Shown here: piece after piece, positions 18,905 to 54,236 of the stretch
Numbering within the stretch: position 1 is the first letter of the stretch
Layout of the letters: the number at the start of each line of letters is the position of its first letter
From: a virus
Direction: 5' to 3' (one strand)
Length of the DNA stretch: 64,000 bases
Virus record (IMG/VR): IMGVR_UViG_3300027782_000027
Span: 62,001-126,000 of that record
The notes under the pieces: generated by a model
The model's input: only the letters and a program-made list of their open reading frames with translations
Databases searched by the model: none
Told to the model about the DNA's origin: nothing
Position numbers and translations under genes: made by a program

Positions 18905-18905
18905 A

Positions 18906-19964: not shown

Positions 19965-19967
19965 ATT

Positions 19968-20228: not shown

Positions 20229-20817
20229 CTAATTTATTTTTTAAAATTAACTTTAGTTCTTCGATAGAATTAATTGATTCATTACAATTAATTTTTTCGT
20301 TATAAATTGTATTGAATTTAATACAATTATTATAATTAATAAGAATATTAGGGTTAGAAGTAACTATTAAATCAAAATCTCCTAAAACTTTGGACTTATT
20401 TGAATCATTATAGAATAAAATTGATTCTATTAAACATCCGAACTTTGATAGGAAAAATAAAGTTGCGGGTTTTGTTTTACCTATTTCATCTGAAATTATT
20501 ACGATATCATTTTTATCTCTAAAATCTAAATAAAAGTCATTTAAATAGTTAAAACTTAACAATTCAGTTGAGGGTGAATGACCAAAAATCTCCATGGGAA
20601 ATTCTTCGTATAAAAAACTAAAAAACTCTTCTTTTGATTGAAATGAAAAATGATTCATTAAATCTAAAGAATTAATTGGTTCATTAATTACATATTCAAA
20701 CGGGTTTTCAGATTCAGAATTTTCTAAATTATTATCTATTAAAAATTTTTCGTAAGTGGTTTTAAACTTACCTATAGTATCTCTTAAAACTCCATTAATA
20801 TCAATTCCTATCTTCAT
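20212..20817 (-). CDS. HAD-superfamily-like protein with altered motif I
   Basis: The product has 201 residues. The N-terminus MKIGIDINGVLRDTIGKF is HAD motif I, but the second aspartate of DxD is Asn7 (DIN). A motif II-like IVIISDEIGK and a following Lys (KTKPATLFFLSKFG) are present, and FDLIVTSNP may be motif IV. 5'-nucleotidase-like enzymes of this size occur in phages. Loss of the general-acid Asp could mean weak or absent phosphatase activity. It overlaps PhoH by 17 bases. Confidence 0.6.
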   Translation of the reverse strand: MKIGIDINGVLRDTIGKFKTTYEKFLIDNNLENSESENPFEYVINEPINSLDLMNHFSFQSKEEFFSFLYEEFPMEIFGHSPSTELLSFNYLNDFYLDFRDKNDIVIISDEIGKTKPATLFFLSKFGCLIESILFYNDSNKSKVLGDFDLIVTSNPNILINYNNCIKFNTIYNEKINCNESINSIEELKLILKNKLDADNS

Positions 20818-21541: not shown

Positions 21542-21544
21542 TAT

Positions 21545-22369
21545 TTAATTTGTGTGTAACTTTTTTGAGAATAATTGCATTTCAATTATCTGAAATTCCA
21601 ATTCAGGTATATCATATTTTATATCAAAAATTGTTGATAATGTTCTATCAACAATATATTCTGAATCAACTGGATTAATTTCAATATTTAAATTGTATGA
21701 ATTTGACAACATTTTAACTAAATCATATTTTGAGACTTGAGTTGGTGAGATGAAATGTTTAGTTCCCTTCCAAAAATCTTTGTTATTTATAATTTTTTCT
21801 ACTAATTTAGCCCATTCTAAACAAGTTATACCGTTCCAAAAATGATTCAGAAACCCATTAACTTTATTATTTTTTTGACTTTTAACCCATTCAACTAAAG
21901 ACCTATGTTGATTAATTTCTTCCCCAATTATTGAAGTTCGAATTATTGTGCAATTTTTTGGTTCCCCAATAGCCTTAGACATACCATATACATCATCAAC
22001 ATCATATTTATCTTTTTCATTATATTTCCCTTTTTTACCTGAATATACACAATCTGTTGTTGGGTGAATCATGTCCCATTTATTTTTTTCGCAAATATTT
22101 GATAACATTCTTGGAAATACTGAGTTAACTAAAATAGCATTTAAATCCCCTAATTGGTCAACTCTTGGTTTAATAGTACCAATACAATTTATGATAACGT
22201 CTCCCTGATTTACACCACAATTAATTAAAATTTCTTCTAATGTTTTTTCTGTTTGTTGAGAGGCGTCAAGAACATCTCTATTAATTTCGTTAACATTAAA
22301 TTTTTCGGATAAATAAGTGTAAACATATTTACCTAACATACCTTTTGAACCTAAAATATAAATTTTCAT
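21545..22369 (-). CDS. NAD(P)-dependent sugar reductase, RmlD-like
   Basis: The product has 274 residues, the usual size for RmlD-type 4-keto-6-deoxysugar reductases (SDR extended family). Residues 1-12 contain the dinucleotide-binding GSKGMLG, VINCIGTIKPRVDQ follows the second strand, and the catalytic YxxxK is YGMSK. The position near GDP-mannose dehydratase suggests that it reduces a 4-keto-6-deoxyhexose, possibly GDP-linked, but the substrate is inferred. The start codon is preceded by an unusual A-tract repeat. Confidence 0.82.
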   Translation of the reverse strand: MKIYILGSKGMLGKYVYTYLSEKFNVNEINRDVLDASQQTEKTLEEILINCGVNQGDVIINCIGTIKPRVDQLGDLNAILVNSVFPRMLSNICEKNKWDMIHPTTDCVYSGKKGKYNEKDKYDVDDVYGMSKAIGEPKNCTIIRTSIIGEEINQHRSLVEWVKSQKNNKVNGFLNHFWNGITCLEWAKLVEKIINNKDFWKGTKHFISPTQVSKYDLVKMLSNSYNLNIEINPVDSEYIVDRTLSTIFDIKYDIPELEFQIIEMQLFSKKLHTN

Positions 22370-22403
22370 AATTTTTTTTATTTTTTTTATTTTTTTTATT
22401 TTT
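22370..22403. repeat. A/T microsatellite before the RmlD-like start codon
   Basis: Four tandem copies of ATTTTTTT(T) on the plus strand, that is an (AAAAAAAT)n leader read on the minus strand, fill the whole gap between two sugar genes up to the ATG at 22369. Confidence 0.85.
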
Positions 22404-22823
22404 TTATCTAAAATCTTCTTCCCATATATTCCAATTATCGTGCGGTAATCTTATATCGTCACCTAAACTTTCTTCTAATGAAGTAGTTGAAAAGAAAATA
22501 ACTGAAGTGTTATCTTCTAAATTTTTAAAACCATTATAATGGTTTGGTGGAATAAATAATACTTTTGGTTGTTTTGAACTTAAAATATATTTTGTAATTT
22601 CTTCAGTTTCCATGTCAACAATCCCAATAAGGGCGGTTCCACTCGAAACATAAACATATTTCCCTTCTTTTTTGTGACCATGCCACGCTCTTATAAAACC
22701 TTGCCTATGATTTTCAACTTGATAAAATCTTTTTATATTTTCAAAATTGAAGTCATTAACAAATCTAACCGAACCCCTGTCATCAACAGAGATACCACCA
22801 TTCATTAATTTTTTTGTGTCCAT
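22404..22823 (-). CDS. Cupin sugar 3,5-(3,4-)epimerase/isomerase, RmlC/FdtA-like
   Basis: The product has 139 residues. It has the cupin pattern of the WxcM/FdtA and RmlC-related enzymes: RFYQVENHRQGFIRAWHGHK, YVYVSSGTALIGIVD and VLFIPPNHYNGFKNLED. These act on 4-keto-6-deoxy nucleotide sugars. Whether it epimerises or isomerises is not decidable here. The gene overlaps the following epimerase gene by 19 bases. Confidence 0.75.
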   Translation of the reverse strand: MDTKKLMNGGISVDDRGSVRFVNDFNFENIKRFYQVENHRQGFIRAWHGHKKEGKYVYVSSGTALIGIVDMETEEITKYILSSKQPKVLFIPPNHYNGFKNLEDNTSVIFFSTTSLEESLGDDIRLPHDNWNIWEEDFR

Positions 22824-23779
22824 AATAATTCTTTTTGATTTTTTTTATTTGTTAAAAACGCTCCATTGTGGTAAACTTTATCTTCAGGATTTTCAATTCT
22901 ATTTTCTTCAAATAAAGTTACCATTCTTAATACCTCATCTTCAACGGTTGTAATTGGTTTATATTTAAAAACTTTTAAAGATTTTGAATTATCAACACGA
23001 TAATTTCTAGCATCTTGAAAAGATATTTCAGTGTATGTTACTTTAGTATTAGGTACTATTTTAGCAACACGTTCACCTAGTTCTTTAATTATAACATTTT
23101 CTTTTGATAAAACAAAAATTCCGGGATACTTTTCTTTACATGCCTCTGTAATGTATCCTGCAATATCTTTAACCGCAATTATTGGTCTCCATTGTTCACC
23201 TCCATTAATAGTTATAGTACCTTCTTTTACCGCTTTCATAGTTAAAACATTAACAACTAAATCCATTCTAATTCTAGAATATGTGTCACCAAGACCAAAG
23301 ACAGTTCCTAATCTGAAAATTGTCCCATTTTTATCTAAAATGTGTTTTTCGGCTTTAAGTTTTGTTGAAGCGTATGATGATAATGGATTTGTTTCACTTA
23401 ATTCATCTAATATACCATCTTGAGCTCCGTAAACTGAACACGTAGACATAAAAATTAAATGTTTATCAGATGGAACAATATTACAAAAATTTTTGATAGA
23501 ATTATAATTAATTTCTTCAGTTAAAAATGGGTCAACACTACAAGCCGGGTCACCAACTAGAGCCGCCATTAAAACTATAATATCAAAATCTTTAGATACT
23601 TCATAAAGTTTATTAGTATCTCTAATGTCTCCATAAATAAAAGAAACATCTTTTAAATATCTATTTTCATATAATAAATTATCGTAAATAGTTATATCAA
23701 ACCCTTCTCTAATAAGATAATCTGATGTTAATCCTCCGATGTAACCGGCACCACCGACTAATAAAACTTTTTCTTTCAT
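22805..23779 (-). CDS. NAD-dependent sugar epimerase/dehydratase
   Basis: The product has 324 residues, an extended SDR enzyme. Residues 1-20 contain VGGAGYIGGLTSDYL with the GxxGxxG motif, D31IxxYDNLL follows, and SSYASTKLKAEKH holds the YxxxK-type catalytic pair (YASTK). The C-terminal sugar domain includes GGEQWRPIIAVKDIAGYITE. It most resembles UDP-glucose 4-epimerase/NAD sugar epimerases, but the substrate is not clear. It is part of the nucleotide-sugar section of the block. Confidence 0.82.
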   Translation of the reverse strand: MKEKVLLVGGAGYIGGLTSDYLIREGFDITIYDNLLYENRYLKDVSFIYGDIRDTNKLYEVSKDFDIIVLMAALVGDPACSVDPFLTEEINYNSIKNFCNIVPSDKHLIFMSTCSVYGAQDGILDELSETNPLSSYASTKLKAEKHILDKNGTIFRLGTVFGLGDTYSRIRMDLVVNVLTMKAVKEGTITINGGEQWRPIIAVKDIAGYITEACKEKYPGIFVLSKENVIIKELGERVAKIVPNTKVTYTEISFQDARNYRVDNSKSLKVFKYKPITTVEDEVLRMVTLFEENRIENPEDKVYHNGAFLTNKKNQKELLWTQKN

Positions 23780-23807
23780 TATTTTATAAATTTATATTTT
23801 TTTACTT

Positions 23808-24632
23808 TTAAAAAACAGGTATTGTTTCAGCTTTACATCCTCCAAACCACCATATACATTCTGAAAATGTACTGAGACGATTGCAAACCAACATATCACA
23901 TTTTGAGGCTATTAACATACTGGCTGCGGAATATTGCATTTGAGTAACATTATTTGGTTTAGTATAAGTTATTACATTATAGTCTTTTAAGTATTCTAAA
24001 TATTCAGGTAAAACACTGTCGTTATCTGAAGTAAGAAAAATAGTTTTTACTTTTGGTAAAAATTCATTAATTGCATTTTTATAAGTTTCAAAATTATAAT
24101 CTCTAATAACACCGTCTCGAATACTTGTACAGTTTGGAGGGTCAAATTGATGAGTCCAAGTTCTTATTTGTATGGTAAGTAATGGGTATTCAAAATCTTT
24201 TGATACTCTCTCAACTTCAGATAATACTTCAGGTCTCCATTTAATTTTACCAATTCCTTTTTGTATTCTATTAAATACTGTATTACATATTAAATTTCTA
24301 TTAAAAAACCAATCAATTGAATGTGTCGAAAATAAATATGATAAATTTTTGTTGACGATATTTGGATGGTCTCCTAATGATTTCGCATCATTTATTAAAT
24401 CCGGTTGTTCATTTTCTTCTGATTTTAAAATAAGAAATCTTGCAGAAATAAACGATTGACCAAATTCATGAGAACCATGACAAATTAAACTATCGTCTAA
24501 AATTTCTTGATAATCAGCATCAAAATGAGCATCAAATCTAGGTAAAAGATTAGTTTCACCTATACTTAAAGCTGTAACAAAAGATTTTAAAACATTACAT
24601 AAACCAGATTTTATTTCTACTGTAAATTTCAT
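23808..24632 (-). CDS. Glycosyltransferase, fucosyltransferase-like (GT-B)
   Basis: The product has 274 residues from the ATG at 24632, chosen because the protein then starts MKFTVEIKSGLCNVLKSF without overlapping the upstream gene. An in-frame ATG at 24654-24656 gives eight more residues. The pattern LLTIQIRTWTHQFDPP, KTIFLTSDNDSVLPEYLEYL and MLVCNRLSTFSECIWWFG recalls the NodZ/GT23-type and O-fucosyltransferase motifs (IRRxD, SDN, STFS). A GDP-6-deoxyhexose donor would fit the neighbouring GDP-mannose dehydratase. The family call is moderate. Confidence 0.6.
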   Translation of the reverse strand: MKFTVEIKSGLCNVLKSFVTALSIGETNLLPRFDAHFDADYQEILDDSLICHGSHEFGQSFISARFLILKSEENEQPDLINDAKSLGDHPNIVNKNLSYLFSTHSIDWFFNRNLICNTVFNRIQKGIGKIKWRPEVLSEVERVSKDFEYPLLTIQIRTWTHQFDPPNCTSIRDGVIRDYNFETYKNAINEFLPKVKTIFLTSDNDSVLPEYLEYLKDYNVITYTKPNNVTQMQYSAASMLIASKCDMLVCNRLSTFSECIWWFGGCKAETIPVF

Positions 24633-24639
24633 ATATATT

Positions 24640-25563
24640 TTATTTAACAAATTCATTAATTAAATTAATCCATTTTTCACGACAACGCTCTAATGTGTAT
24701 TCTTTTGAATAATATTCACGTGGTGTAAATAATTGACGATTATTTGTAACATATCTTATTGTTTCAGGAAAATCTTCGTCATTAGCAACTAATCCCCATG
24801 TTTCATCATCTTTTCTATCTAAATAACACCCCATAGGTCTTGCGACCATTGGTATATTACACGCACCTATTTCTATCCCAGCAAAATGACCTTCTTCATT
24901 TCCCGATGTACAAATACCACATACTGATGAATTAATTAAAAGTCTAACTGTAGTTGTGTCAACTCTATTAAATATTTTTACCCTATCTTTACTATGAGAA
25001 GGAATAATATCAATTGTTGTATTATCTTTCATTACTAAACAAAAATTAAAATCAGGCATTTGCTCAATTAGATTTAAAACTCTATGAAATCCTTTTTTTT
25101 CATTAGAAGAATCACCTATAAAAATAATTGAATTAGGTAAAACATCAGGATGTTTTTCAGGGATGGGTTTAAAAAAATCAAAATCAGAAGATTGTTCAAT
25201 TATCCTTACGTTTTTTGGATTAATTCTTTCTTTGTATATATTATACGTTTCTTTTGATGCAAATACCACACATGTACATGAATTTATGACTTCAGTCTGC
25301 ATTGGATTGTTCATAGTATCTTGTATTAAACAAAATGTTGGAACATCAATATTAAGTTTACGAAAATAACTACCGTTTCTAATTATATAATCTGGGCGAT
25401 TCTCAATTGATTCTATTCTATCTGCTAATATAGAATAATCTGTATATCCATCGCATTTATCTTGAAGATTGGGAAACCAATCTAATAAGTCATGCCAAAA
25501 TGTTCTTGTATTAGGAATACAAGTCAATCTATCATTAACTAACCACCCAATTTTGTTTTTCAT
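24640..25563 (-). CDS. Glycosyltransferase, GT4-like
   Basis: The product has 307 residues of GT-B type. The C-terminal Rossmann half is clear: PNSIIFIGDSSNEKKGFHRV, then DRVKIFNRVDTTTVRLLINS and CTSGNEEGHFAGIEIGACNI with the ExxxxxE-type nucleotide-sugar site. The short N-terminal half has LIQDTMNNPMQTEVINSCTC. The donor sugar is unknown. The leader contains a second A-tract microsatellite. Confidence 0.78.
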   Translation of the reverse strand: MKNKIGWLVNDRLTCIPNTRTFWHDLLDWFPNLQDKCDGYTDYSILADRIESIENRPDYIIRNGSYFRKLNIDVPTFCLIQDTMNNPMQTEVINSCTCVVFASKETYNIYKERINPKNVRIIEQSSDFDFFKPIPEKHPDVLPNSIIFIGDSSNEKKGFHRVLNLIEQMPDFNFCLVMKDNTTIDIIPSHSKDRVKIFNRVDTTTVRLLINSSVCGICTSGNEEGHFAGIEIGACNIPMVARPMGCYLDRKDDETWGLVANDEDFPETIRYVTNNRQLFTPREYYSKEYTLERCREKWINLINEFVK

Positions 25564-25568
25564 AATAT

Positions 25569-25597
25569 ATTTTATTTTTTATTTTTTATTTTTTATA
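25569..25597. repeat. A/T microsatellite before a glycosyltransferase start
   Basis: Tandem TATTTTTT units on the plus strand ((AAAAAAT)n on the minus strand) span the stop of the GDP-mannose dehydratase gene and the leader of the gene starting at 25563. Confidence 0.8.
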
Positions 25598-26557
25598 AAT
25601 GTCTAACCAATAATTTATCATTTCGTCCATCATCGTTTCAAAAGTATATTCAGGTTTCCATCCTAAAGACCTAATTTTACTTGAGTCTCCTTTAAGATAT
25701 GGTAATTCTTCAGGTCTTAAAAACTTATCATTTTGAACAACGTAGTTTTTATAATTTAAATTTAATTTACTAAAAACATATTCACACATATCTCTAACTG
25801 ACCTAGATTCTCCAGTGGCAACAACTAAATCGACTGGATTATCTTGTTGTAATATTAAATGCATTGCTTTTACATAGTCTTTTGAATGTCCCCAGTCTCT
25901 GTAAGAATCCATGTTACCAAGTTCTAATTTATCAGATAAACCTAAACTTATCATCACCGCGGCTTTAACTACTTTATTGGTAACAAAATTAGAACCTCTA
26001 CGAGGAGATTCATGATTGAATAAAATACCATTGTTGGCATGTAAATTATACGCATTTCTATAATTTCGAACAATGTTATACCCAAATACTTTACTACACC
26101 CATATGGTGAAACTGGATTCATATGAGTTGTTTCTCTTTGATATCCATCAGGGTCTACCGAACTTCCAAACATTTCCGAACTACTCGCTTGATAAAATTT
26201 TGATTTAGGACAAATTCTACGATAAGCGTCTAAAATATTTAAAACACCTAAAGAATTAACTTGTGATGTAAATTGTGGGATATCATAACTAATACGTACA
26301 TGACTTTGAGCTGCTAAATTGTATATCTCATCAGGTTGTATTTCATTTAATAATCTTTCAATATTAGATTGGTCTAATAAGTCACCATAATATATATTTA
26401 TTTTGTCTCGAATTTCGTCAAGTCTACTTTGTTGATGTTCAGGTGTGGAATTTCTTCGTATAATACCATGAACTTCATATCCTAATGATAAAAGATATTC
26501 TGCTAGATATGACCCATCTTGGCCACTCACACCGGTTATAAATGCACGTTTAATCAT
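25586..26557 (-). CDS. gmd: GDP-mannose 4,6-dehydratase
   Basis: The product has 323 residues and is very well conserved: FITGVSGQDGSYLAEYLLSL, HGIIRRNS, NLAAQSHVRISYDIPQFT, YQASSSEMFGSS, the catalytic YGCSK, FNHESPRRGSNFVTNKVVKA and YRDWGHSKDYVKAMHLILQQ. It converts GDP-mannose to GDP-4-keto-6-deoxymannose, the precursor of GDP-fucose, GDP-rhamnose, GDP-perosamine and related sugars. A host supply of GDP-mannose is assumed. The next step could be the RmlD-like reductase (21545-22369) or the aminotransferase next door. Confidence 0.96.
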   Translation of the reverse strand: MIKRAFITGVSGQDGSYLAEYLLSLGYEVHGIIRRNSTPEHQQSRLDEIRDKINIYYGDLLDQSNIERLLNEIQPDEIYNLAAQSHVRISYDIPQFTSQVNSLGVLNILDAYRRICPKSKFYQASSSEMFGSSVDPDGYQRETTHMNPVSPYGCSKVFGYNIVRNYRNAYNLHANNGILFNHESPRRGSNFVTNKVVKAAVMISLGLSDKLELGNMDSYRDWGHSKDYVKAMHLILQQDNPVDLVVATGESRSVRDMCEYVFSKLNLNYKNYVVQNDKFLRPEELPYLKGDSSKIRSLGWKPEYTFETMMDEMINYWLDIYKK

Positions 26558-26566
26558 ATTTTATTT

Positions 26567-27190
26567 TTAACTTTTAAAAAAATTCATTTTAGTCAAATCT
26601 GGCCAATCCTCATATTTCCATTTTTTAGGATTTGTATTAATAGCGTTAGATAATTTATCTAATCCTAATTTGGCAGTCTCAGGAGTCATATAGTAATGGT
26701 AACCCATAGTATCAATATTTTGTTCTCTCCATGGAATATTGGGTAGTCTGCCGTCATAACTCATTTTTTTTAACTGAATAGCATCTTGTTCGTTGTCCAA
26801 AAGAATCATACCACCTCTACCTAAACTTAAATGTTTTTGAAATTGAAAACTTAAACACATATATGTGTTTGGAATATAACTGTCTTTTTTCCACAATACT
26901 GCAGCGTCAATTATTCTTTTTTCTTCGTAATTTAAAGTGTAATAATCTTCCCATTTTTCATCTCTCCAATTTAATCCAATTCCCAATTTTTTAGACAACA
27001 TGGGTATGGATAAATAAGTTCGTAATGGGACATTAATTTTAGTAGTATTTGTTAGTCTTAAACATAACTCGATACCATGGGTACAACTATCTACAGCAAC
27101 TGCATAAGGGGCATTGTAAAATTGTGATATTTTTTTTTCAAATTCCGTCACAGTATCCATATTCACTTGTTCCATAAGATTAGTAATCAT
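26567..27190 (-). CDS. Short DegT/DnrJ/EryC1-type aminotransferase
   Basis: The product has 207 residues, little more than half the usual ~370. It keeps the family landmarks: YAVAVDSCTHGIELCLRL (cofactor phosphate region), IIDAAVLW with Asp95 in the place of the PLP-ring Asp, and the Schiff-base block LSFQFQKHLSLGRGGM with Lys119. Much of the C-terminal small domain is missing, yet there is no visible frameshift, so it looks like a compacted enzyme rather than a pseudogene. With GDP-4-keto-6-deoxymannose it could make GDP-perosamine, an inference. The start overlaps the upstream stop by 11 bases; Met6 is an alternative. Confidence 0.72.
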   Translation of the reverse strand: MITNLMEQVNMDTVTEFEKKISQFYNAPYAVAVDSCTHGIELCLRLTNTTKINVPLRTYLSIPMLSKKLGIGLNWRDEKWEDYYTLNYEEKRIIDAAVLWKKDSYIPNTYMCLSFQFQKHLSLGRGGMILLDNEQDAIQLKKMSYDGRLPNIPWREQNIDTMGYHYYMTPETAKLGLDKLSNAINTNPKKWKYEDWPDLTKMNFFKS

Positions 27191-27704
27191 ATCCTAATTT
27201 TTTTGCATTGTAAAGTATTCTTGTACTATCTATTTTTTTAACTAAAATTGCTGGATTTCCTTTATATACCCCCCATTCTTCAGTATCACCCATTAATAAA
27301 CTACCTGCAGATAATAGAACACCCCGTCTTAATCTTGAGCCGGGTAATACAATAGAATTTGTTCCGATATTAGAAAATTCTTCCATAAAAACAGGTTTAA
27401 TTATTTGAGTACCTTTTAATTCTTCAGGTATCATTGCTCCAAATAATCCACTATCATCAAATCTATCTGAACCACATACAATTCTAGCTCCGGCCATTAT
27501 GTTATTAAACCCTTTAGCCGTAAAATCTGAGTTTTTACCACCTATAATTGTCACATAAGGACTAATATGTGTATAATCACTAATATATAATTTTGTGGTA
27601 CAATAAAATCCTTTATCTATTGCAACATGATTACCTATAACACAATTATTTTTTTCTTTTATTATTATATCTAAATCTAAAACAACATCATTACCTATTT
27701 TCAT
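27180..27704 (-). CDS. Hexapeptide-repeat acetyltransferase
   Basis: The product has 174 residues with a left-handed beta-helix pattern: VVLDLDIIIKEKNNCVIGNH, TKLYISDYTHISPYVTIIGG and GTNSIVLPGSRLRRGVLLSA. This fits sugar O- or N-acetyltransferases of the WbbJ/NeuD type. Next to an aminotransferase, an N-acetyltransferase acting on an amino-deoxysugar is plausible. The ATG at 27704 overlaps the upstream TGA by one base; the TTG at 27707 is less likely. Confidence 0.82.
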   Translation of the reverse strand: MKIGNDVVLDLDIIIKEKNNCVIGNHVAIDKGFYCTTKLYISDYTHISPYVTIIGGKNSDFTAKGFNNIMAGARIVCGSDRFDDSGLFGAMIPEELKGTQIIKPVFMEEFSNIGTNSIVLPGSRLRRGVLLSAGSLLMGDTEEWGVYKGNPAILVKKIDSTRILYNAKKLGYDY

Positions 27705-28114
27705 CAAATAAAAGTTTTATCAATTGTTTGACCAAAATACGGCCCTGTTTTATATTCATATACAATAGTATCGTCTTCTAAAATCAAATAATTATGACCA
27801 CCATTAAATGTAAAACTAATATCACCTGCGGATAATATAGGTTCTGCAATCACATTATCATCAATGTCATAGAAAATACATTTTACCTTTCCTTTTATAA
27901 CACACCAACTTTCTTGAGGTATATAATTTTCGTCATGTCTTGGGATTATGTTATGTTTGTGAGGTTTAAATGTGTGTCCTTTAGATAATTTTAAACTGGC
28001 ACACTGAAGATAGTTTTTATCAGTACTTAAATCGGTTCTTTTGGAAATAACATCAGATAATCTCACAACTTGATGAAGGAGTTCTCCATTAATTTTAGAA
28101 TATATTTTTTCCAT
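27704..28114 (-). CDS. Cupin-fold protein
   Basis: The product has 136 residues. A single cupin domain is suggested by GHTFKPHKHNIIPRHDENYI (His-rich metal site), ESWCVIKGKVKCIFYDIDDN and ISFTFNGGHNYLILEDDTIV. It may be a sugar isomerase/epimerase or a sugar-binding cupin. It sits between glycosyltransferases and the acetyltransferase, so a role in the same pathway is likely, though no reaction can be assigned. Confidence 0.65.
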   Translation of the reverse strand: MEKIYSKINGELLHQVVRLSDVISKRTDLSTDKNYLQCASLKLSKGHTFKPHKHNIIPRHDENYIPQESWCVIKGKVKCIFYDIDDNVIAEPILSAGDISFTFNGGHNYLILEDDTIVYEYKTGPYFGQTIDKTFI

Positions 28115-28137
28115 ATTATTTTTTTAATTTTAACATT

Positions 28138-28866
28138 TTAATCATCTTTTTCACCTTCTTGTATGTGGTATACTAATGAATCAAAAACAGTTACGTGTTT
28201 CATACCATAGTTTGATTCAAGTTTTCTAAAGTACCAGTCATCTCCACTTTGTACGACCCAACCGTTTAATGTTCCAATTCCGTCAGGGTAAATATTACCT
28301 TCAGGGTACTTACCACTCTCTAAAAATCTTGTTTTTTCAAGTATACATGGCATATATAATCCACCTGAATAAATTTTATCTTCTCTTATTGTTGTATTTA
28401 CCTTTTCCCAAAGTTCGAAATCAATATTATTTGGGTGTTTTCCACAATTAATACTTAATCCATATGTTCCACTTCCCATTTTTCCGCTTTCAACTAATCT
28501 AGATGTCGGAATATTAATTCCATCATGATGTTTTAATAAATTTTCTAACCAACCATCACTAAAAACCATATCAGAATTGACGAAACATATATTGTCATAT
28601 TCACTGGTTTCACCCGCAAAATTCCAACATCGATATACTCGATTTAAATAATAATCATTAGGTTTTGTGTCATTATAAATTGTATATGGAATATCTAAAG
28701 TTTTTAATTTATCTAAAATTTCTTGTGTTGCGTCATTCGCTACAATTCTCAAACTAACATCCCACCCATTAACCTTACATTTGTTACTTTTTAATTCATT
28801 ATAAATTAATTCTAAATAGTCAATTGATTTAAAAATTAATGAAATTATTTCAACGTTTTTTTTCAT
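28138..28866 (-). CDS. Glycosyltransferase, GT2-like
   Basis: The product has 242 residues of GT-A type. It starts NVEIISLIFKSIDYLELIYN, has the metal-site region YDNICFVNSDMVFSDGWLEN (NSD in place of DxD) and ends with a block around SGDDWYFRKLESNYGMKHVT and a final VYHIQEGE. Such proteins transfer sugars from nucleotide donors; the acceptor is unknown. It lies 4 bases from the upstream GT17-like gene. Confidence 0.75.
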   Translation of the reverse strand: MKKNVEIISLIFKSIDYLELIYNELKSNKCKVNGWDVSLRIVANDATQEILDKLKTLDIPYTIYNDTKPNDYYLNRVYRCWNFAGETSEYDNICFVNSDMVFSDGWLENLLKHHDGINIPTSRLVESGKMGSGTYGLSINCGKHPNNIDFELWEKVNTTIREDKIYSGGLYMPCILEKTRFLESGKYPEGNIYPDGIGTLNGWVVQSGDDWYFRKLESNYGMKHVTVFDSLVYHIQEGEKDD

Positions 28867-28870
28867 GTAT

Positions 28871-29659
28871 TTATTTTTTGTATAAAAAATCAGGATATAA
28901 TTCTAAAAATTTATCCATAGATTTTGGTTTATCTTTTGTTATATCAACAATTTCTTTTTTAGCATAATCATCGGTACGATTCCATAAGTCAGTTTGATTT
29001 TTCATTTTACTTTCTATTTCAGAAGGATTACCAACATTATCAATTATCAAAGATGATTCTGCAATATTTTCAACTTTATATCTAATTCTCTCAGGCCCTC
29101 CCATAAAACTATAATGCCATCCTCCGTGAAATTTACTATTATAACCATGTCTTGCGGTATTTCTTAATTGTTGTGGTGACTGAAAAGTTCCGTAATTTGC
29201 CATTATTGGTCCATCCCATAAACAATTTTGTTTACAATTTACATAATAATAATACAAATTTTGTTTAAAAGTTACCCACTCATTATTATCAATATTATTA
29301 ACAATTAAATCAGTATTTGGAATTTCATCTAAATCTGAAACAATTATTTTATCACCTATTGACGCATGGTCAACTAAACCTCTCATTATACAATTTCTTT
29401 GGTAATTTTCAGGCACCCATATATTATCTGAAGAATATACCGGTAAATCCTCAACTTTAACATGTATTATTTTATCAAGATATTCTTTAAAAAGTTCTTT
29501 ATTTTTTTCAAAAATAAATTCTTTAGGATTTCCGGTATGTGTTTTATTAGATTCAACTATTACAAAATAATCTACAACAGGATTTAACTCCATTAATCGT
29601 AGGTGTAATAATTCTATTTCATTAAAAAATTTAAAACAATCAAATATTTTTTTAGACAT
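28871..29659 (-). CDS. Glycosyltransferase family 17-like
   Basis: The product has 262 residues. The GT17 pattern (beta-1,4-N-acetylglucosaminyltransferase-like) is clear: IFDCFKFFNEIELLHLRLME, VVDYFVIVESNKTHTGNPKE, then DKIIVSDLDEIPNTDLI with a DxDE metal site and GGWHYSFMGGPERIRYKVEN. In bacteria and giant viruses this family builds surface glycans. A UDP-GlcNAc or related donor is a family-based inference. Confidence 0.88.
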   Translation of the reverse strand: MSKKIFDCFKFFNEIELLHLRLMELNPVVDYFVIVESNKTHTGNPKEFIFEKNKELFKEYLDKIIHVKVEDLPVYSSDNIWVPENYQRNCIMRGLVDHASIGDKIIVSDLDEIPNTDLIVNNIDNNEWVTFKQNLYYYYVNCKQNCLWDGPIMANYGTFQSPQQLRNTARHGYNSKFHGGWHYSFMGGPERIRYKVENIAESSLIIDNVGNPSEIESKMKNQTDLWNRTDDYAKKEIVDITKDKPKSMDKFLELYPDFLYKK

Positions 29660-30455
29660 TATTTATAGAGTATTTATTTTCAATTTTAGTAACATAATTA
29701 AATAAGTAATTATTTTTATTCCACATTTCCCAAAATTTATTATCCATATTTACTCGATTTGTTACTGTCGCATTTTTATCATTTCCGTAATGCCATAAAT
29801 GAAGTGCTACAAAATCATCAATGAACCTAACATTTAATTTAATACGAATTCTATGTATAAATTCATCATCATCAAACGCCACTCCAGATGCAAATCTTTC
29901 GTCAAATCCTCCTAATTCTTTTAAATCTTTTTTAGTTATTGCGGTACAAAAATGATAAGATTTTGGTCGATATAATGAATGATTATACCATCCTTCATCA
30001 CCATCATTAACTACTGATATTTTTCTATACGTTGAGGGGTTAATAAATGATTTAAAATCATTCAGTTGTAACACTGCTGATGTTTGAATTTCACTTAAAG
30101 AATAACAAGCAAATGATAAATAATCATTATCAATCAAATTCTTGTTTACAAAATTTAAAATATCATCTGAATGTAAACATTCAGGATTTTGTATAATAAT
30201 TTTATCACCTAACGCTTGATTAAATCCGATGTTAAAGGGAACACATGGATTTACATACCATTTATCTTTTTTTTCTAATCTAATAATTTTTAAAAAAGGA
30301 AATTCGTTTACCAAATCTTCTAATCTTTCATCTTCGTGACTACAGTCATCAACTGCAATAACTTCAAAATCAGTAAAACTACTTTTTTTAAAACTTTCTA
30401 ATGTTTTAATAAATATTTTTTTTCGATTGTGATATGCGGTAACGATAGAAATCAT
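29652..30455 (-). CDS. Glycosyltransferase family 2
   Basis: The product has 267 residues. A standard GT2 start, ISIVTAYHNRKKIFIKTLES, is followed by VIAVDDCSHEDERLEDLV (DD) and PFNIGFNQALGDKIIIQNPE. Later TAITKKDLKELGGFDERFAS and the acidic FDDDEFIHRIR complete the family signature. Both ends overlap neighbours by a few bases, so it is tightly coupled in the operon. Confidence 0.87.
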   Translation of the reverse strand: MISIVTAYHNRKKIFIKTLESFKKSSFTDFEVIAVDDCSHEDERLEDLVNEFPFLKIIRLEKKDKWYVNPCVPFNIGFNQALGDKIIIQNPECLHSDDILNFVNKNLIDNDYLSFACYSLSEIQTSAVLQLNDFKSFINPSTYRKISVVNDGDEGWYNHSLYRPKSYHFCTAITKKDLKELGGFDERFASGVAFDDDEFIHRIRIKLNVRFIDDFVALHLWHYGNDKNATVTNRVNMDNKFWEMWNKNNYLFNYVTKIENKYSINNV

Positions 30456-31510
30456 AATTTTTCTTTTAATATTTCAATAATTTTGTCTGATGTTTTACCA
30501 TCTCCTAACCAATCTGTGTTTGAGTTATAATTTGATAGATAATTAAATGAATCAATCCACGAAACATCTAATTCATTTACATTAATCATATATGAACATC
30601 CATACTCAACCGATTCAGGCCTTTCAGTAAAATCTCTCGGTACAATAACTGGAGTGTTAAATAAACAAGGTTCTTCTTGAGCTGTGCCTGAATCTGAAAT
30701 TATAAATTTAGAATGATACATTTCATTTATATAATTTTTAAAAGATAATAAATTAATTACTTTAATATTTTCTAAATCTAAATTAAATTCGGAAATTTTA
30801 TCAATAGTTCTTTTAAATGATAACATTTCAATAGGTATCCCAAATCTTTGGGAACAAATATTAGCGTAGTTTAATATGTTTTTTAAACGTTCCTTACTAT
30901 TAAAATTTTCAGGTCTATGAATATCTAAAATTATTTTATTATTTTTTTTAGATTTATTTAATTCTATTTTATTTGCAACCTCTTTAATTGTATTTCCTAC
31001 AACATAAATTGATTTTGGATTAATTGATTCTCTAATCAATTTTTCTTTGTAATTATCATGATAAACAAATAAAAGGTCACTACAATGGTCACAAACAATT
31101 CTATTAATTTCTTCAAGCATTCTTTTATCGCCCGACCTCATACCCGCCTCAATGTGAGCAATTTTATACCCCTCTTTTTTAAGAGGTACGGATGCTAATG
31201 CTGAATTTGAATCACCTAAAAAAATTATTAAATCAGGATTTATATTTTCGTTACGAATTAAGTCAATTATTTTGACAGATAAGTCTGCCTGTTGATGAAA
31301 ATGTTCTTTTCCATTTGAACCAATCTCTAAATTAAAATCAGGTTTACGTATTGATAACTCATCAAAAAATACATCTGACAACATTTTATCATAATGTTGT
31401 CCAGTATGTACTAATATATGATTAAAATTATTATCTAATTTTTTAAAAATTTCAGACATTCTGATGAAGTCAGGTCTAATACCAGTAATAGTTATAATTG
31501 TTTTTTTCAT
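30452..31510 (-). CDS. wecB: UDP-N-acetylglucosamine 2-epimerase (non-hydrolysing)
   Basis: The product has 352 residues. Family motifs are ITGIRPDFIRMSEIFKKL, HILVHTGQHYDKMLSDVFF, AHIEAGMRSGDKRMLEEINR and the C-terminal SDSGTAQEEPCLFNTPVIVP followed by RDFTERPE. The enzyme interconverts UDP-GlcNAc and UDP-ManNAc. No UDP-ManNAc dehydrogenase is visible in the window, so the product is probably used directly or passed to host enzymes. Confidence 0.92.
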   Translation of the reverse strand: MKKTIITITGIRPDFIRMSEIFKKLDNNFNHILVHTGQHYDKMLSDVFFDELSIRKPDFNLEIGSNGKEHFHQQADLSVKIIDLIRNENINPDLIIFLGDSNSALASVPLKKEGYKIAHIEAGMRSGDKRMLEEINRIVCDHCSDLLFVYHDNYKEKLIRESINPKSIYVVGNTIKEVANKIELNKSKKNNKIILDIHRPENFNSKERLKNILNYANICSQRFGIPIEMLSFKRTIDKISEFNLDLENIKVINLLSFKNYINEMYHSKFIISDSGTAQEEPCLFNTPVIVPRDFTERPESVEYGCSYMINVNELDVSWIDSFNYLSNYNSNTDWLGDGKTSDKIIEILKEKL

Positions 31511-35704: not shown

Positions 35705-36286
35705 TTATTGGAGTTTTTTAACTTTAGATATTTTACCTTCAAATATATGTTTACCAACTTTGATTGTCATAATTTCATTAGATTTTTGAGTTGATTCAAC
35801 CATTAATCCATTTTCAGTTAATACCTCCTCAACAGTTTCTCTAACAATTTTTCTTATGTCATTAGCACTTAATCCAATACCACTATTTGAAGGTTGATGT
35901 TGAGGTTGTGGTTTGTTTTCTACAACAGTTTCTTTACGGGTGCCCATTAATCTTGACGCCTTTTCAATAATATCATCTGATATTGTTGCTTGATATTGTT
36001 GAGCTTGTTGAATTGGGTGTTCCATCATTAACCTTTTAATTGCGTCAGGTAATTTAGAATTTTTTATTCTATCTTCAGTTATTACTGCCGTAGATGCTTT
36101 TGGTGTTTGAGGAGATGAAGACAAATACTCTTCAGGTATGTTATAAGTTGACGGGATTGGAGTCTCATCATATTCTCTAACTAATTGTTGTTGATTTGAT
36201 TTTTTAGGTGTTACACCTCTATCCATATCATTATGTCTATCCATTATCTGTTTAGACACCATTAATTTCTGCATTAAATCATTCAT
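35705..36286 (-). CDS. Uncharacterised protein, last gene of the WYL operon
   Basis: The product has 193 residues. It has a disordered Gln/Pro/Ser-rich middle (KPQPQHQPSNSGIG), a conserved-looking LPDAIKRLMMEHPIQQAQQY, a predicted helix NDIRKIVRETVEEVLTENGL and a short beta end (EIMTIKVGKHIFEGKISKVK). I recall similar proteins in marine T4-like phages without function. It is probably a minor virion or assembly protein, because the operon is driven by a late motif at 38257. Confidence 0.6.
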   Translation of the reverse strand: MNDLMQKLMVSKQIMDRHNDMDRGVTPKKSNQQQLVREYDETPIPSTYNIPEEYLSSSPQTPKASTAVITEDRIKNSKLPDAIKRLMMEHPIQQAQQYQATISDDIIEKASRLMGTRKETVVENKPQPQHQPSNSGIGLSANDIRKIVRETVEEVLTENGLMVESTQKSNEIMTIKVGKHIFEGKISKVKKLQ

Positions 36287-36671
36287 TTTCTAATTCAAAT
36301 TTTGTACAAACTTTTAATCCTACCATTCCTTTATCATCAGGATTATAATTTGGTCTGATTACGTCAAATTTATCTCTAGGGTCTACTGAAAAGTTACCTA
36401 TTCTATCAATCCTAAATAATCTCCACCCCGGTAATGGTTGGTCACCAATTTGTGCGGTGTGAGACGCTCCTTCTCTTTCCCATGCTCTTATTACTTTATT
36501 TCCTCTTTTTGAGGTTCCGTAACAAAAAGGTTCAATTACACGAAGTCCTTTACCCCCATTATCTTTACCATTGTAGTAAATTGTAACCAAATTTCTATTT
36601 TTAATAGCATTGGTTATTTCATCGCTACTAGCTTCAAAAATAAGTTGTTTTATTACGTTGTAAAGCTTCAT
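36279..36671 (-). CDS. WYL-domain protein with capsid-targeting-like N-terminus
   Basis: The product has 130 residues. Residues ~16-110 match a WYL domain (Sm-like beta barrel): DEITNAIKNRNLVTIYYNGK, GLRVIEPFCYGTSKRGNKVI, RAWEREGASH and PGWRLFRIDRIGNFSV. WYL domains bind ligands or nucleic acid and often regulate transcription or defence systems. There is no HTH domain. The first 13 residues MKLYNVIKQLIFE are followed by Ala14, so IFE is a good prohead-protease site and the domain may be delivered with the DNA (inference). It overlaps both neighbours. Confidence 0.75.
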   Translation of the reverse strand: MKLYNVIKQLIFEASSDEITNAIKNRNLVTIYYNGKDNGGKGLRVIEPFCYGTSKRGNKVIRAWEREGASHTAQIGDQPLPGWRLFRIDRIGNFSVDPRDKFDVIRPNYNPDDKGMVGLKVCTKFELENE

Positions 36672-44468: not shown

Positions 44469-45599
44469 TTATATTACATACATATTTCTTGGGAACGCTC
44501 TGAACTTCATTTGTTTGTTAAGATTTTCAGCAATTAATGCCTCACGTTCCATTATTTTTTCAGGTCTTAATCTTGTCAATCTACCATCTGCTCCAATTAA
44601 CTCCTCAATCAATTTTGTTTTTTCATCTTTACCCTCAGTGGCTAAAGTAGCGTAATCCATAGTTAATTCAGAGTCAGGTGTCTTTAAGTTTCCTGAATAT
44701 TTTCCTCTAACTTTTGATAATGTTTCTTTACAACTTGCTACAAAATATCTTCTAACCCACTGTTGTGCGGGGTCATTTAAGTCAACCCAACCAATTGAAT
44801 TCATCGGAACATCTGAAGGAAGTTTAATAATATCAGGATTTGCAGCTAAACAAGCATCTCTATCCTGAGGTCCAACATCGTAATACCAATACCATACTTG
44901 GTGATGGTTTAATGATGAACTACCAAAGTCAAATTTACCACCAGGTGTCTGCATTAAATGAATTGCCTTTTTACCATTAGGTAATCCTGTTATTCTATAA
45001 GTTAAATCACCACCAATAATTCTTCTTTGGATATTAATTTCTTGCATTCTTAATAACATATCAAATGCGGATGTCATAAAGTATGAACCCGAACCACCCA
45101 TTTGAGCAAAACCACCAGGTCCACCAATGCCTGTACCACCTAAAGCCCCAAAACTCCATGGGTCAAATAATACATTATTTAACGTTGCCGGTGTAAACCA
45201 TAATAATTCATTGATTTCACGACCTGCGGGTATTTCATAAATCTGTTGGTTTGGAACTAATGTGATATAATCTTTTTTAAGTTCCCAATCACCAAGAGGT
45301 GATGATTGTAAACCAACTATTTTAGAGTATGCCTGAGCATATCTGTTTTCGTAATCTAAACTCTTAGTTACAAATGCTCTTGATAATGATTGTGTATCTA
45401 AATTTAAATTATATAATGAAGTCCATTGTGATTCAATTAACCAATCTTGAACATATTGGGAGTAATCCCCGATAGAAAATTCCAAGATTGAATCCATTTG
45501 TTCATCTTCTAATTCAATTGAACGAATTGGTGCTCCGAGTACGTGTCTAACTTTTGTATATAGTTGACTTCTGTATGGTTCTGCGATTATTGTATTCAT
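44469..45599 (-). CDS. 13: Neck/head-tail connector protein, gp13-like
   Basis: The product has 376 residues. The N-terminus VRHVLGAPIRSIELEDEQMD then ILEFSIGDYSQYVQDWLIES and the C-terminal QQWVRRYFVASCKETLSKVR, GKYSGNLKTPDSELTMDYAT and EEKTKLIEEL-like helix match the pattern of T4-like neck/connector proteins. Residues ~130-180 are a Gly-rich loop (GALGGTGIGGPGGFAQMGGS). It would seal the portal and join the tail. The gp13 label is a family guess; another connector or baseplate role is possible. It has its own late promoter motif. Confidence 0.6.
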   Translation of the reverse strand: MNTIIAEPYRSQLYTKVRHVLGAPIRSIELEDEQMDSILEFSIGDYSQYVQDWLIESQWTSLYNLNLDTQSLSRAFVTKSLDYENRYAQAYSKIVGLQSSPLGDWELKKDYITLVPNQQIYEIPAGREINELLWFTPATLNNVLFDPWSFGALGGTGIGGPGGFAQMGGSGSYFMTSAFDMLLRMQEINIQRRIIGGDLTYRITGLPNGKKAIHLMQTPGGKFDFGSSSLNHHQVWYWYYDVGPQDRDACLAANPDIIKLPSDVPMNSIGWVDLNDPAQQWVRRYFVASCKETLSKVRGKYSGNLKTPDSELTMDYATLATEGKDEKTKLIEELIGADGRLTRLRPEKIMEREALIAENLNKQMKFRAFPRNMYVI

Positions 45600-45615
45600 G
45601 AAGTGATATTTTTAT

Positions 45616-45622
45616 ATAAATA
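45616..45622 (-). promoter_or_regulatory. Putative late promoter (TATTTAT) of the connector gene
   Basis: On the minus strand TTGATATTTATATAAAAATA lies 16 bases before the ATG. The box directly abuts the stop codon region of the SOD gene. Confidence 0.6.
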
Positions 45623-47128
45623 TCAATTCACAGTATAAATTAAATCTTGTGTTGGGATTTTAAACATACTTGAACTAAAAGCGACAGTTTTGTTTTTAAA
45701 AATATAAACTTCTTTATTAATATTTGAGAAAATTAATAAGTCGGTATTAAACTTTTTGACAAAACCTTTAATTTTAATATTATAGAAACCGTCAATTACT
45801 TCCATACTTAAAATTGGTTTAACTTGAGCGTTTTGTATTTTGTTATCAAAATTCACTGTTAAATCAGTTCCCGCAAAATCTTCTTTTGAACCTAAACTAC
45901 CAACTACAACTGCAGTTCCTTCACCAAATTCTTGATTGATTTTTTTTGCGACATACTCCTCAAGTTGACCACCTTTGTCATGTGTTCTTTTTAAAAGTTT
46001 CATAATCTTATCAAGAGTTTTAGACCCTTTAAAAATTCTTTCACCAAAAAACTCCATATAAGAACAAAATTTATTTATTTCTTCTACTTGTTGTAAAGGT
46101 GTTACCCCAATAAAATTTAATGTGGGTTTATTTAGTTTCGTAAGGACTGCGTTTAAATCATCAACTAAAATCTTAAACCCAATATAATTTGTATTTAATT
46201 TATTAATTACTGAACGACCTGGTTGTTCTAAGTCGTAAATACCTGAAGATGAACCTTCGGAGTGTTGATTGTTTTCATGCCACTTATCAGACAAAACCGT
46301 TTTCAACGTATTATCAATACATCGTCTGTAAGTCCAAAGAACATTTTTGTTGTTACTAAAAATATCTGAGTAATCCGACACGTTTTCGTATAACAGTTTT
46401 TTTGGTGAAGTTGATTCGTTCAATTTTTTTTCAGTTTTTGATTTGTATAACTCATTAACAAATTCCCAGTTGATTACTTCCCAAAAATTTTCAATATATT
46501 CGTCTCTTTTGTTTTGGTATTTTAAATAATATGCGTGTTCCCATAAATCCAAACCTAACAACGGAAAACCACCTTGATTAATTATATTCATAAGTGGGTT
46601 GTCTTGATTTGAGGTGGACATTACTTTTAATCTACCTGTATCGGTTAGAACTAACCAACACCATCCTGAACCAAATCGTTTTTTTGATATTTCTTCAAAT
46701 TTAGTTTTGAAATTACGATACGTCCCAAATTGTTTAACAATTTTTTCAAACACTTCACCACTTGGTTTTTGCGGTGTGGGTGATAACATCTTCCAAAACA
46801 ATGCGTGGTTAAATGCTCCACCTGCGTTATTTCTTATTGTTGTATTATACTTTGATATCTGTTTAACAATATTCTCCAATTCAACATCACCATAATCTTT
46901 TTTACGAAGAGCTGAATTTAATTTTTTAACATACCCCTTGTAATGTTTTTGATAATGAAATTTCATTGTCTCAGGGTCAATAAATCTTCTTAACGATGCG
47001 TATCCATACGGTAGTTTATCAATACCAATGGTTTTCATTTCATTAATAAAAAATTTGGTTTCAGGTTGAGTTTCCTCACCTAACAAACGACTAACTAATG
47101 ACTCTGATACTATATTTAACGATTTCAT
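45623..47128 (-). CDS. Mn/Fe superoxide dismutase fused to a PD-(D/E)xK-like domain
   Basis: The product has 501 residues. Residues ~35-230 are a complete Fe/Mn SOD. The metal ligands are His58 (FHYQKH), His108 (FNHALFW), Asp194 and His198 (LDLWEHAYY); Tyr66 is retained; and NNAGGAF plus Gln175 in STSNQDNPLM point to the Mn-type or cambialistic subclass. Residues ~230-380 are helical and unrecognised. Residues ~385-501 look like a restriction-endonuclease fold: GGQLEEYVAKKI, then GTDLTVNF (Asp422) and AQVK (Gln435-Lys437). The first 18 residues end in LLGE, an (L/I)xE site, so packaging in the head is possible. Its start lies 5 bases after a late motif. Confidence 0.82.
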   Translation of the reverse strand: MKSLNIVSESLVSRLLGEETQPETKFFINEMKTIGIDKLPYGYASLRRFIDPETMKFHYQKHYKGYVKKLNSALRKKDYGDVELENIVKQISKYNTTIRNNAGGAFNHALFWKMLSPTPQKPSGEVFEKIVKQFGTYRNFKTKFEEISKKRFGSGWCWLVLTDTGRLKVMSTSNQDNPLMNIINQGGFPLLGLDLWEHAYYLKYQNKRDEYIENFWEVINWEFVNELYKSKTEKKLNESTSPKKLLYENVSDYSDIFSNNKNVLWTYRRCIDNTLKTVLSDKWHENNQHSEGSSSGIYDLEQPGRSVINKLNTNYIGFKILVDDLNAVLTKLNKPTLNFIGVTPLQQVEEINKFCSYMEFFGERIFKGSKTLDKIMKLLKRTHDKGGQLEEYVAKKINQEFGEGTAVVVGSLGSKEDFAGTDLTVNFDNKIQNAQVKPILSMEVIDGFYNIKIKGFVKKFNTDLLIFSNINKEVYIFKNKTVAFSSSMFKIPTQDLIYTVN

Positions 47129-47133
47129 TAATT

Positions 47134-47140
47134 ATAAATA
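47134..47140 (-). promoter_or_regulatory. Putative late promoter (TATTTAT) of the SOD fusion gene
   Basis: On the minus strand AAGTATTTAT-AATTA-ATG; only 5 bases separate the box from the start codon. Confidence 0.55.
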
Positions 47141-47141
47141 C

Positions 47142-48902
47142 TTACTTACTATTGATTTCGTTAAGTATTTGTTCAACAATATCTACAGAACTTTCGTCAA
47201 TATCACCCATAACCGTACCAATTATCTGTTTCTTCCTTGTAAGAATATCATAAATAACTCCTTCAATAGAGTTATCAAATAATGGATAGTATATTGAAAC
47301 TGAATTTTTTTGTCCATATCTATACGCTCGGTCTTCGGCTTGAGCATGTTCAGCGGGTACAAACGATAAGTCATTCATAATAACGGCCTCACCAGCGGTA
47401 AGTGTCAATCCAACCCCCGCAGCTTTCATGTTACCACAAAAAACTTGTATTTTATCACTCTCTTGGAACTTGTCAACCGCATCCTGTCTTGCGGGTTTTG
47501 ATGTTGACCCATCTAAATAAACAGACTTCTTACCAAAATGTTCGTGTATCTTTTTTAAAGGTTCAGTGAAGTTACTGAAGATAATAACTTTTTTACCCTG
47601 TTCAATAATGTTCTCAGCAAGTTCAATTGTTATAGATATTTTTTCTTCAGCAATTACCTGTCTTACTTTCATAAGTTTTGAAAACTGAACTGAGAGAGAC
47701 CTTGACTCATCTTGTCTATTATTATACCAATCATAATACTCACCCATCAACCCTTCATACAATCTTGATTTTAAACGAAGATAAACAGGTGTGATAATTT
47801 TTTCAGGTAAATCTAAAACTTCAGTCTTTAATCTTCTTAATATTTGACGTGAAGTTCTTTCTCTTAATTCTTCTAAATTAGATGCTCCTGTCACATTCCA
47901 AATCTTTTTACCACCAACTCTAAACTGATACCCACCACAATATCTAATTGCATATGCTTGCCAGTTTTGACTCACAGGACTATCAATAAGTTTTAAGATA
48001 TTATAATAATTCATGGGACGAGAAGTCATTGGTGTCCCCGTTAATAACCAAAGTTTTTTAATGTTTTTGGTTACATCCATTATAATCTTTGTTCTTTGAG
48101 CCTGAGCATTTGAAACATAATGGGCTTCATCAATAATAACCAAATCAAATTTTGAATTAAGAATTGTTGAACCATTTTTATCTTTTGGGTCGTGAAAGTT
48201 TTTCAGGATATCGTAATTTACAATTACGTAATCCGACAATTCAAACTTTTTACCTTCACAGATATAAACTGATTTGTCGGTATAGTTTTTAATTTCTCTT
48301 TCCCAATTTATTTTAAGAGATGCCGGACATATGATTAAAATTCTATTTGTACCGCTTTCTAATGAAGCAATCACCGCAGAAGTGGTCTTACCAAGTCCCA
48401 TGTCATCCGCCAAAATGAACTTATCGTTCTTTAATAATTTTTCTATCGCTTCTTTTTGATGAGCAAGTGGTGGTCGGTTTTCATATTTTGTATAATCAAC
48501 ATCAACCAAGTTTTCGGTGTATTGTTTAATAACCGCAGCTCTCGGTATCCAAAAATCATGGATAGTCTCTCCACTAAAAATTTTACCCCAAATGTGATAT
48601 GACTTATCTTTTTCAACTAAAATTTTTTCAACGTATATTTTATCAGGTTCCTTAATAAAAGGATTGTCAGCAACAAGTTTTTGTGAAAAGTATGAATCAA
48701 TCTCAACCCATTTTTTAGCAACTTTTGGAACTACTGAATTGTAGTCAATAACATAATCACATTGAGCTCTTGTTGGAAGATACTTTTTATTTGAATCAAT
48801 CTGTTTTTTTAATTTGAGGATATAGTTATTTGACCCCTGATAATTTTCAAGAATAGATATTGCTTGTTGTTCAATACTTAAATGTCCTGTAGAAGTTGTC
48901 AA
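47142..48902 (-). CDS. SNF2-family helicase-like ATPase
   Basis: The product has 586 residues. Motif I is LADDMGLGKTTSAVIA (165-180), motif Ia ILIICPASLKINWERE, motif II VIIDEAHYVSNAQAQ (DEAH 258-261), motif III WLLTGTPMTSRP, and motif VI GLTLTAGEAVIMNDLSFVPA then AEDRAYRYGQ. The N-terminal ~140 residues are a small separate domain. It resembles SMARCAL1/UvsW-like branch-migration or fork-remodelling enzymes. The frame has no usable ATG: the start is taken as TTG at 48900-48902 (MTTSTGHLSI), so low translation may be intended. It is divergent from the late gene at 48960. Confidence 0.88.
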   Translation of the reverse strand: MTTSTGHLSIEQQAISILENYQGSNNYILKLKKQIDSNKKYLPTRAQCDYVIDYNSVVPKVAKKWVEIDSYFSQKLVADNPFIKEPDKIYVEKILVEKDKSYHIWGKIFSGETIHDFWIPRAAVIKQYTENLVDVDYTKYENRPPLAHQKEAIEKLLKNDKFILADDMGLGKTTSAVIASLESGTNRILIICPASLKINWEREIKNYTDKSVYICEGKKFELSDYVIVNYDILKNFHDPKDKNGSTILNSKFDLVIIDEAHYVSNAQAQRTKIIMDVTKNIKKLWLLTGTPMTSRPMNYYNILKLIDSPVSQNWQAYAIRYCGGYQFRVGGKKIWNVTGASNLEELRERTSRQILRRLKTEVLDLPEKIITPVYLRLKSRLYEGLMGEYYDWYNNRQDESRSLSVQFSKLMKVRQVIAEEKISITIELAENIIEQGKKVIIFSNFTEPLKKIHEHFGKKSVYLDGSTSKPARQDAVDKFQESDKIQVFCGNMKAAGVGLTLTAGEAVIMNDLSFVPAEHAQAEDRAYRYGQKNSVSIYYPLFDNSIEGVIYDILTRKKQIIGTVMGDIDESSVDIVEQILNEINSK

Positions 48903-54225: not shown

Positions 54226-54232
54226 TATTTAT
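54226..54232 (+). promoter_or_regulatory. Putative late promoter (TATTTAT), 4 bases from the start codon
   Basis: AATATTTAT-AGAT-ATG directly after the sheath terminator. Confidence 0.6.
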
Positions 54233-54236
54233 AGAT

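Follow-up and report, generated by a model that had tools for sequence, protein, structure and literature searches.

The open reading frame (ORF) at 45623-47128 (minus strand, ATG start) of the window, that is, the whole 64,000-nucleotide stretch analysed here (positions 62,001 to 126,000 of the IMG/VR virus record IMGVR_UViG_3300027782_000027), encodes a 501-aa protein in which a superoxide dismutase (SOD), Mn-type by its signature residues, is fused to a C-terminal part (hereafter, NUC) that likely ends in a PD-(D/E)xK nuclease fold. The fusion (hereafter, SOD-NUC) has an N-terminal leader and an inter-domain linker, both with putative prohead-protease sites. We consider it somewhat probable that SOD-NUC is a late, capsid-targeted polyprotein, of which the SOD and the nuclease are cut apart, stored in the head, and injected at infection.

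Gene, locus and relatives

The ORF, which the first-pass annotation of the window had reported without a strand, was confirmed as real and assigned to the minus strand. Its host record is an IMG/VR virus of 240,759 bp with T4-type head genes, including a gp21-type prohead protease (Peptidase_S77; 4499-5218 of the window, plus strand) and a gp23-type major capsid protein (MCP; Pfam Gp23; 6978-8867, plus strand). The closest named relatives of the MCP are from Flavobacterium phage immuto, Microcystis phage Mel-JY01, and Rhodothermus phage RM378, and it is also related to that of an uncultured megaphage. The gene order in the loci examined is UvsW-like helicase, SOD-NUC (or NUC alone), and head-tail adaptor; in the window, the conserved upstream neighbour is an SNF2/UvsW-like helicase (47142-48902, minus strand), and the conserved downstream neighbour is a head-tail adaptor (PHROG 211; 44469-45599, minus strand). 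No further copy of SOD or NUC was found in the 240-kb record. Two other assignments were read from the sequence only, namely, a portal-like ORF (1192-3027) and an extended series of ORFs resembling glycosyltransferases, epimerases, and sugar transferases (18098-31510, minus strand).

At least 597 relatives were obtained, and the best 80 of these span nearly the whole length with 48-99% identity, in at least 80 viral contigs; the carriers are a widespread group of large freshwater phages. Chance was excluded because of the conservation across at least 80 contigs, and an assembly artefact as the source of the fusion was ruled out by the full-length homologues in these contigs at one locus. Some phages have NUC without SOD at the same locus. 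The SOD label changes twice on the NUC tree, and both SOD-less groups are nested among the fusions; since this tree is unrooted, two losses of SOD are suggested and not proven. The leader heads the SOD-less L144 and the L207 group; L144 keeps the leader, the linker end, and ILSE immediately before NUC, and the SOD-less 294-aa group keeps the leader and LSE. In L184 (5279-6822), the frame shifts within the linker, and the rest of the linker and NUC are encoded by a second ORF; this single case resembles a frameshift, which may be a sequencing error or, less probably, a real split into SOD and NUC genes.

Domain assignment

The SOD domain corresponds to residues 36-227 (46448-47023, minus strand). 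Residues 36-226 matched Sod_Fe_C (E=2.8e-41) and Sod_Fe_N (E=2.8e-23) of Pfam, both above the cut-off, and the top PDB sequence matches were solved Mn-SODs (E~1e-59). The metal ligands (H58, H108, D194, and H198) are unchanged throughout the family alignment, and the family has the Mn-type signature (NNAGGxFNH, with GG before the second ligand, and NQDNPLM, with Gln in NQDNP). A complete SOD with four metal ligands and Mn-type residues, as previously annotated, is thus agreed on by Pfam, PDB, and ligand invariance, and the domain is very likely an active enzyme, with its Mn type indicated by the signature residues. The closest bacterial SODs are up to 53-57% identical and largely from Bacteroidota; when placed in a tree alongside 75 bacterial SODs, those of the phages grouped into a single clade (support, 100). 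Several of the nearest bacterial SODs (L337, L338, and L340-L344) start with a twin-arginine-like export signal, and the phage leader may stand in place of an earlier export signal.

NUC comprises a helical domain (residues 250-384; 45977-46381, minus strand; AlphaFold helices with pLDDT of 85-98) and a nuclease-like domain (residues 385-501; 45626-45976, minus strand). Searches of residues ~250-501 against Pfam, PHROG, and PDB sequences gave no convincing match. The AlphaFold model of NUC obtained with 29 relatives had a mean pLDDT of 87.6 and consisted of the helical part and then a mixed alpha/beta core. In the Foldseek ranking against PDB, I-Ssp6803I was first (E=0.0035, probability 1.0), archaeal Hjc was next, and RecU was lower, all of which are PD-(D/E)xK proteins; these E-values are weak (0.0035-0.4, with none <0.001 in PDB). 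The fold matches in BFVD included PD(D/E)XK proteins, and among the viral predicted structures, one 1113-aa protein had a fold closely similar to that of NUC. E390, D422, and Q435xK437 (D-x12-QxK) are unchanged in the 29 family members and in a distant megaphage homologue, and G304-R-S306 and N309 are invariant in the helical domain. Because the top matches agree with each other, and because of the predicted topology and the invariant E390, D422, and Q435xK437, residues 385-501 were assigned as a likely PD-(D/E)xK nuclease fold. The fusion of SOD to such a fold, which had been proposed from the E-D-x12-QxK spacing, is supported by AlphaFold, Foldseek, and the invariant residues, and structure prediction with fold search found the nuclease core to be present. 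Since the sequence profiles gave no match to any described family, NUC appears to be a new family inside the PD-(D/E)xK fold and outside its described subfamilies. The full-length AlphaFold model was less confident, above all in SOD (pTM 0.50), and because of this low confidence, no domain-domain arrangement was taken from it.

A search of GTDB genomes for a bacterial NUC homologue found none at the sensitivity used, and the window's own NUC gave no match among named phage records; a SOD-less relative used as the query matched the megaphage records LR756501/LR756503. The 735-kb megaphage LR756501 (L332, 5950-6822) has a standalone, unannotated, leaderless 290-aa homologue of NUC (profile comparison, E=2.6e-12).

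Leader, linker and late-class motif

The leader (residues 1-30; 47039-47128, minus strand) is a putative capsid-targeting propeptide with a variable sequence that ends in an invariant [IL]xE. Site conservation was counted over 45 representatives (<95% identity). E30 and the I or L at its -2 position were each found in 45/45, and the putative prohead-protease site I28-N29-E30|M31 (47036-47047, minus strand) has the same motif as that of T4 gp21, which cleaves after L/I-X-E (PMC9026906). Among the other conserved Glu columns, only that of E197 (in the WEH motif of SOD) has the -2 [IL] pattern in every member. Processing had been placed by the first-pass annotation at residue 18, after an LGE site (residues 16-18); this LGE occurs only in the nearest relatives, the candidate site that is conserved is E30|M31, and two sites in the linker had been overlooked. 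The linker (residues 232-249; 46382-46435, minus strand) is disordered (mostly pLDDT <50 in both AlphaFold models) and contains the putative cleavage sites L236-N-E238|S (46415-46423, minus strand; E in 40/45) and L246-Y-E248|N (46385-46393, minus strand; E in 44/45). The leader and the linker are the most variable regions (1.83 and 1.9 bits/column, respectively, vs 0.66 in SOD), and at least two [LIM]xE were nevertheless found in the linker of 41/45 members, compared with 7.4 (maximum, 17) after shuffling. The E248-type site stays directly before NUC in the SOD-less proteins that have a leader. For the MCP, cleavage was predicted at L57-I-N-E60|A61; L-I-N-E was invariant across its relatives (39/39), with A or S next and then a variable stretch.

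The late-class promoter-like motif TATTTATA is located 4-5 nt before the ATG (47133-47140, minus strand). A late promoter 5 bases upstream had been claimed before; its position and late class hold, and the motif and orientation were revised, since the T4 late promoter TATAAATA at 47133-47140 lies on the plus strand, opposite to the gene, and its occurrence in the window is at the chance level (16 vs 15.3). In the coding sense, the TATAAATA bases give TATTTATA, the late-class motif of the phage, which was found upstream of 35/225 ORFs of the phage genome G000 (3.4 expected). Upstream TATTTAT was present in 68/68 fusion genes (4-28 nt from the start), 99/103 adaptor genes, 11/96 helicase genes, and 1/77 DNA polymerase genes. 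TATTTAT/TATTTATA was read as a candidate late promoter of the phage group, and SOD-NUC is likely expressed late. TATTTATA in the coding sense was also observed just upstream of late genes at 45615-45622, 1177-1184, 54226-54233, and other positions.

In one SOD-less subclade (277-278-aa NUC), the leader, the [IL]xE site, and, mostly, the late motif are gone. In this leaderless subclade, TAnnTTTG, which is the -7 consensus of the Bacteroidota sigma-ABfr (PMC7366714), was found upstream of 9/11 genes (L134, L210, L223-L225, L231-L233, and L238), compared with 0/83 fusions; the 12th row of this class, a truncated leader-type gene, was excluded manually. Across the genome as a whole, TAnnTTTG showed no enrichment (16 vs 12.7). 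The loss of the leader, site, and late motif together with the gain of TAnnTTTG is one event in one clade, and this joint change fits a protein required early that is supplied through either late packaging or early synthesis.

Leaders of the [IL]xE type are shared by dozens of small ORFs (G000 C1:1-60000 and elsewhere, inside and outside the window), such as MKKVVRLTE-SDLTRIVKRVINE, MNLQENIKKVLRE-E, and MKYLITE-SQLDKA. [LI]xE[AGSMT] was found near the N-terminus of 64/248 ORFs (27.6 in shuffles), and the late motif is commoner among the ORFs with such leaders (Fisher p~1e-5). These are possibly a genome-wide head-cargo leader; the alternative would be a helix-capping motif. A 130-aa protein (36279-36671, minus strand) starts with MKLYNVIKQLIFE-ASSDE, resembling a T4-type capsid-targeting sequence, and gave a sub-threshold match to the WYL domain.

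Proposed role and alternatives

The internal proteins of T4 are targeted into the head by N-terminal propeptides of 10-19 residues, and foreign enzymes, including nucleases, fused to the capsid-targeting signal were packaged and delivered (PMC9026906). In our model, the ~30-residue leader would carry the polyprotein into the prohead, the gp21-like protease would cleave after E30 to remove the leader, and a cut after E238 and/or E248 would free the Mn-SOD from NUC. Both proteins would be kept in the head and enter the Bacteroidota host with the phage DNA, and SOD would then clear superoxide while the phage takes over the host, with NUC working on DNA at the outset of infection (that of the host or of a rival, or recombination intermediates of the phage). 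We infer packaging and cleavage because the [IL]xE sites are conserved, a gp21 homologue is encoded, the MCP site has the same form, and T4 provides the precedent; injection and the two biological roles are inferred as well. The previous suggestion of a virion protein stands as a reasonable one, given the [IL]xE sites and the gp21 homologue; the functions suggested with it, protection of the incoming genome from oxidative damage or disarming of an oxidative or nuclease-based host defence, are hypothetical. We regard packaging with trimming at E30 as probable, and give the separation of SOD and NUC slightly less than an even chance. The inter-domain cut is less certain than the cut at E30 because the prohead-protease cuts in SPN3US, except for the self-cleavage of the protease, removed N-terminal propeptides only (PMC10052503), and by this analogy, cleavage between folded domains would be an exception.

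In favour of the packaged polyprotein, the presence of SOD changes at least two times on the NUC tree while the leader, [IL]xE, and NUC persist; the late motif is shared with the adaptor, unlike the polymerase and the helicase; the leader, site, and late motif decay together in one subclade (a single clade) while TAnnTTTG appears; the SOD ligands and the E390, D422, and Q435xK437 residues are invariant; and the packaged late SOD of PBCV-1 is a precedent (PMC7019647). The following points count against it: the P1' residue at site 30 is mostly Met, in contrast to Ala in the MCP and T4 gp22; [IL]xE is short, and a structural role could account for E30 or E248; and such a leader is absent from the distant NUC of the megaphage. 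The wider proposal, in which a virion-delivered SOD and nuclease polyprotein is cut in the capsid and the phage group loads its head by means of [IL]xE-ended leaders on dozens of small late ORFs, is offered tentatively and is rather doubtful at present.

If SOD-NUC is trimmed at E30 and packaged without separation, it would be one bifunctional protein, in which SOD guards the DNA around the nuclease or is a dimerisation scaffold. Classical Fe/Mn-SODs form dimers or tetramers, no site is better conserved than E30, and the SPN3US cuts are as this reading would have them; however, the paired linker [IL]xE far exceeds the shuffled expectation, and two lineages have NUC without SOD, and we consider the unseparated protein unlikely. 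Less likely still is that NUC is a Holliday-junction/branch resolvase that partners the UvsW-like helicase and works in the infected cell and not in the virion, with SOD as an accessory. Hjc and RecU are among the nearest solved folds, the helicase adjoins the gene in the loci examined, and searches of the 240-kb record, which is possibly incomplete, gave no endonuclease VII, RuvC, or RusA; in this reading, NUC would take the place of T4 endonuclease VII, an enzyme that works during packaging. However, it leaves the leader, the [IL]xE sites, and SOD unexplained, the gene is late-class whereas the helicase is mostly not, the Foldseek E-values are weak as described above, and the role itself is compatible with packaging. 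An ordinary auxiliary metabolic SOD joined by chance to an unrelated phage protein, with structural Glu motifs, would be consistent with the lone SOD genes of PA5oct-like phages and Vibrio phage 2.275.O and with the proximity of the SOD to those of Bacteroidota, but is improbable, since the fusion, domain order, and sites persist in relatives with as little as 48% identity, the phage SODs group as one clade instead of reflecting repeated host captures, and the linker [IL]xE pair sits in a disordered segment.

Phage SODs, PD-(D/E)xK nucleases, and capsid-targeted proteins have each been described before. In the literature searched, of which the coverage is thin for subscription journals, no report was found of a fusion carrying paired protease motifs, of the NUC family, or of the coupling to the leader and the late motif. 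If the packaged, cleaved polyprotein is true, the antioxidant enzyme would arrive with the phage itself just as infection begins; this would point to superoxide as a genuine obstacle in Bacteroidota hosts, and T4-type capsid targeting would extend to two-enzyme polyproteins. A functional context would also be given to a new PD-(D/E)xK family shared with 735-kb megaphages, and the leader, [IL]xE, and TATTTAT would serve as sequence rules for predicting which proteins many uncultured phages load into their heads.

Comparison with known systems

Another member of the same family, A0A6J5L953 in BFVD (uncultured Caudovirales phage; 501 aa, 95% identical over the C-terminal part), is named only superoxide dismutase, and this name is silent on the nuclease part and the sites. 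The SODs elsewhere in large phages (PA5oct-like jumbo phages and Vibrio phage 2.275.O) also belong to the Fe/Mn-SOD superfamily, but they are single-domain and very distant (~180-190 aa, 22-30% identical), have no leader or nuclease, and have other neighbours. The late SOD of PBCV-1 (A245R) is packaged in the virion and has been proposed to lower superoxide at infection (PMC7019647); it differs from SOD-NUC in being a Cu/Zn SOD (an unrelated family) of a eukaryotic virus with no nuclease fusion. I-Ssp6803I and archaeal Hjc/RecU share the core fold and E...D...(Q/E)xK with NUC; there is no significant sequence similarity, NUC adds the helical domain of ~135 residues, and its nuclease activity is predicted. 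With IPI, IPII, IPIII, and Alt of T4, SOD-NUC shares a short, putative N-terminal propeptide that ends in [IL]xE, T4-type gp21 and gp23 in the genome, and, probably, the late class. The SOD-NUC cargo differs from the T4 internal proteins in that it has no recognised homology to them and consists of two enzyme domains with putative cuts between them, and its leader, by which packaging would take place, is ~30 residues, longer than the T4 propeptides.
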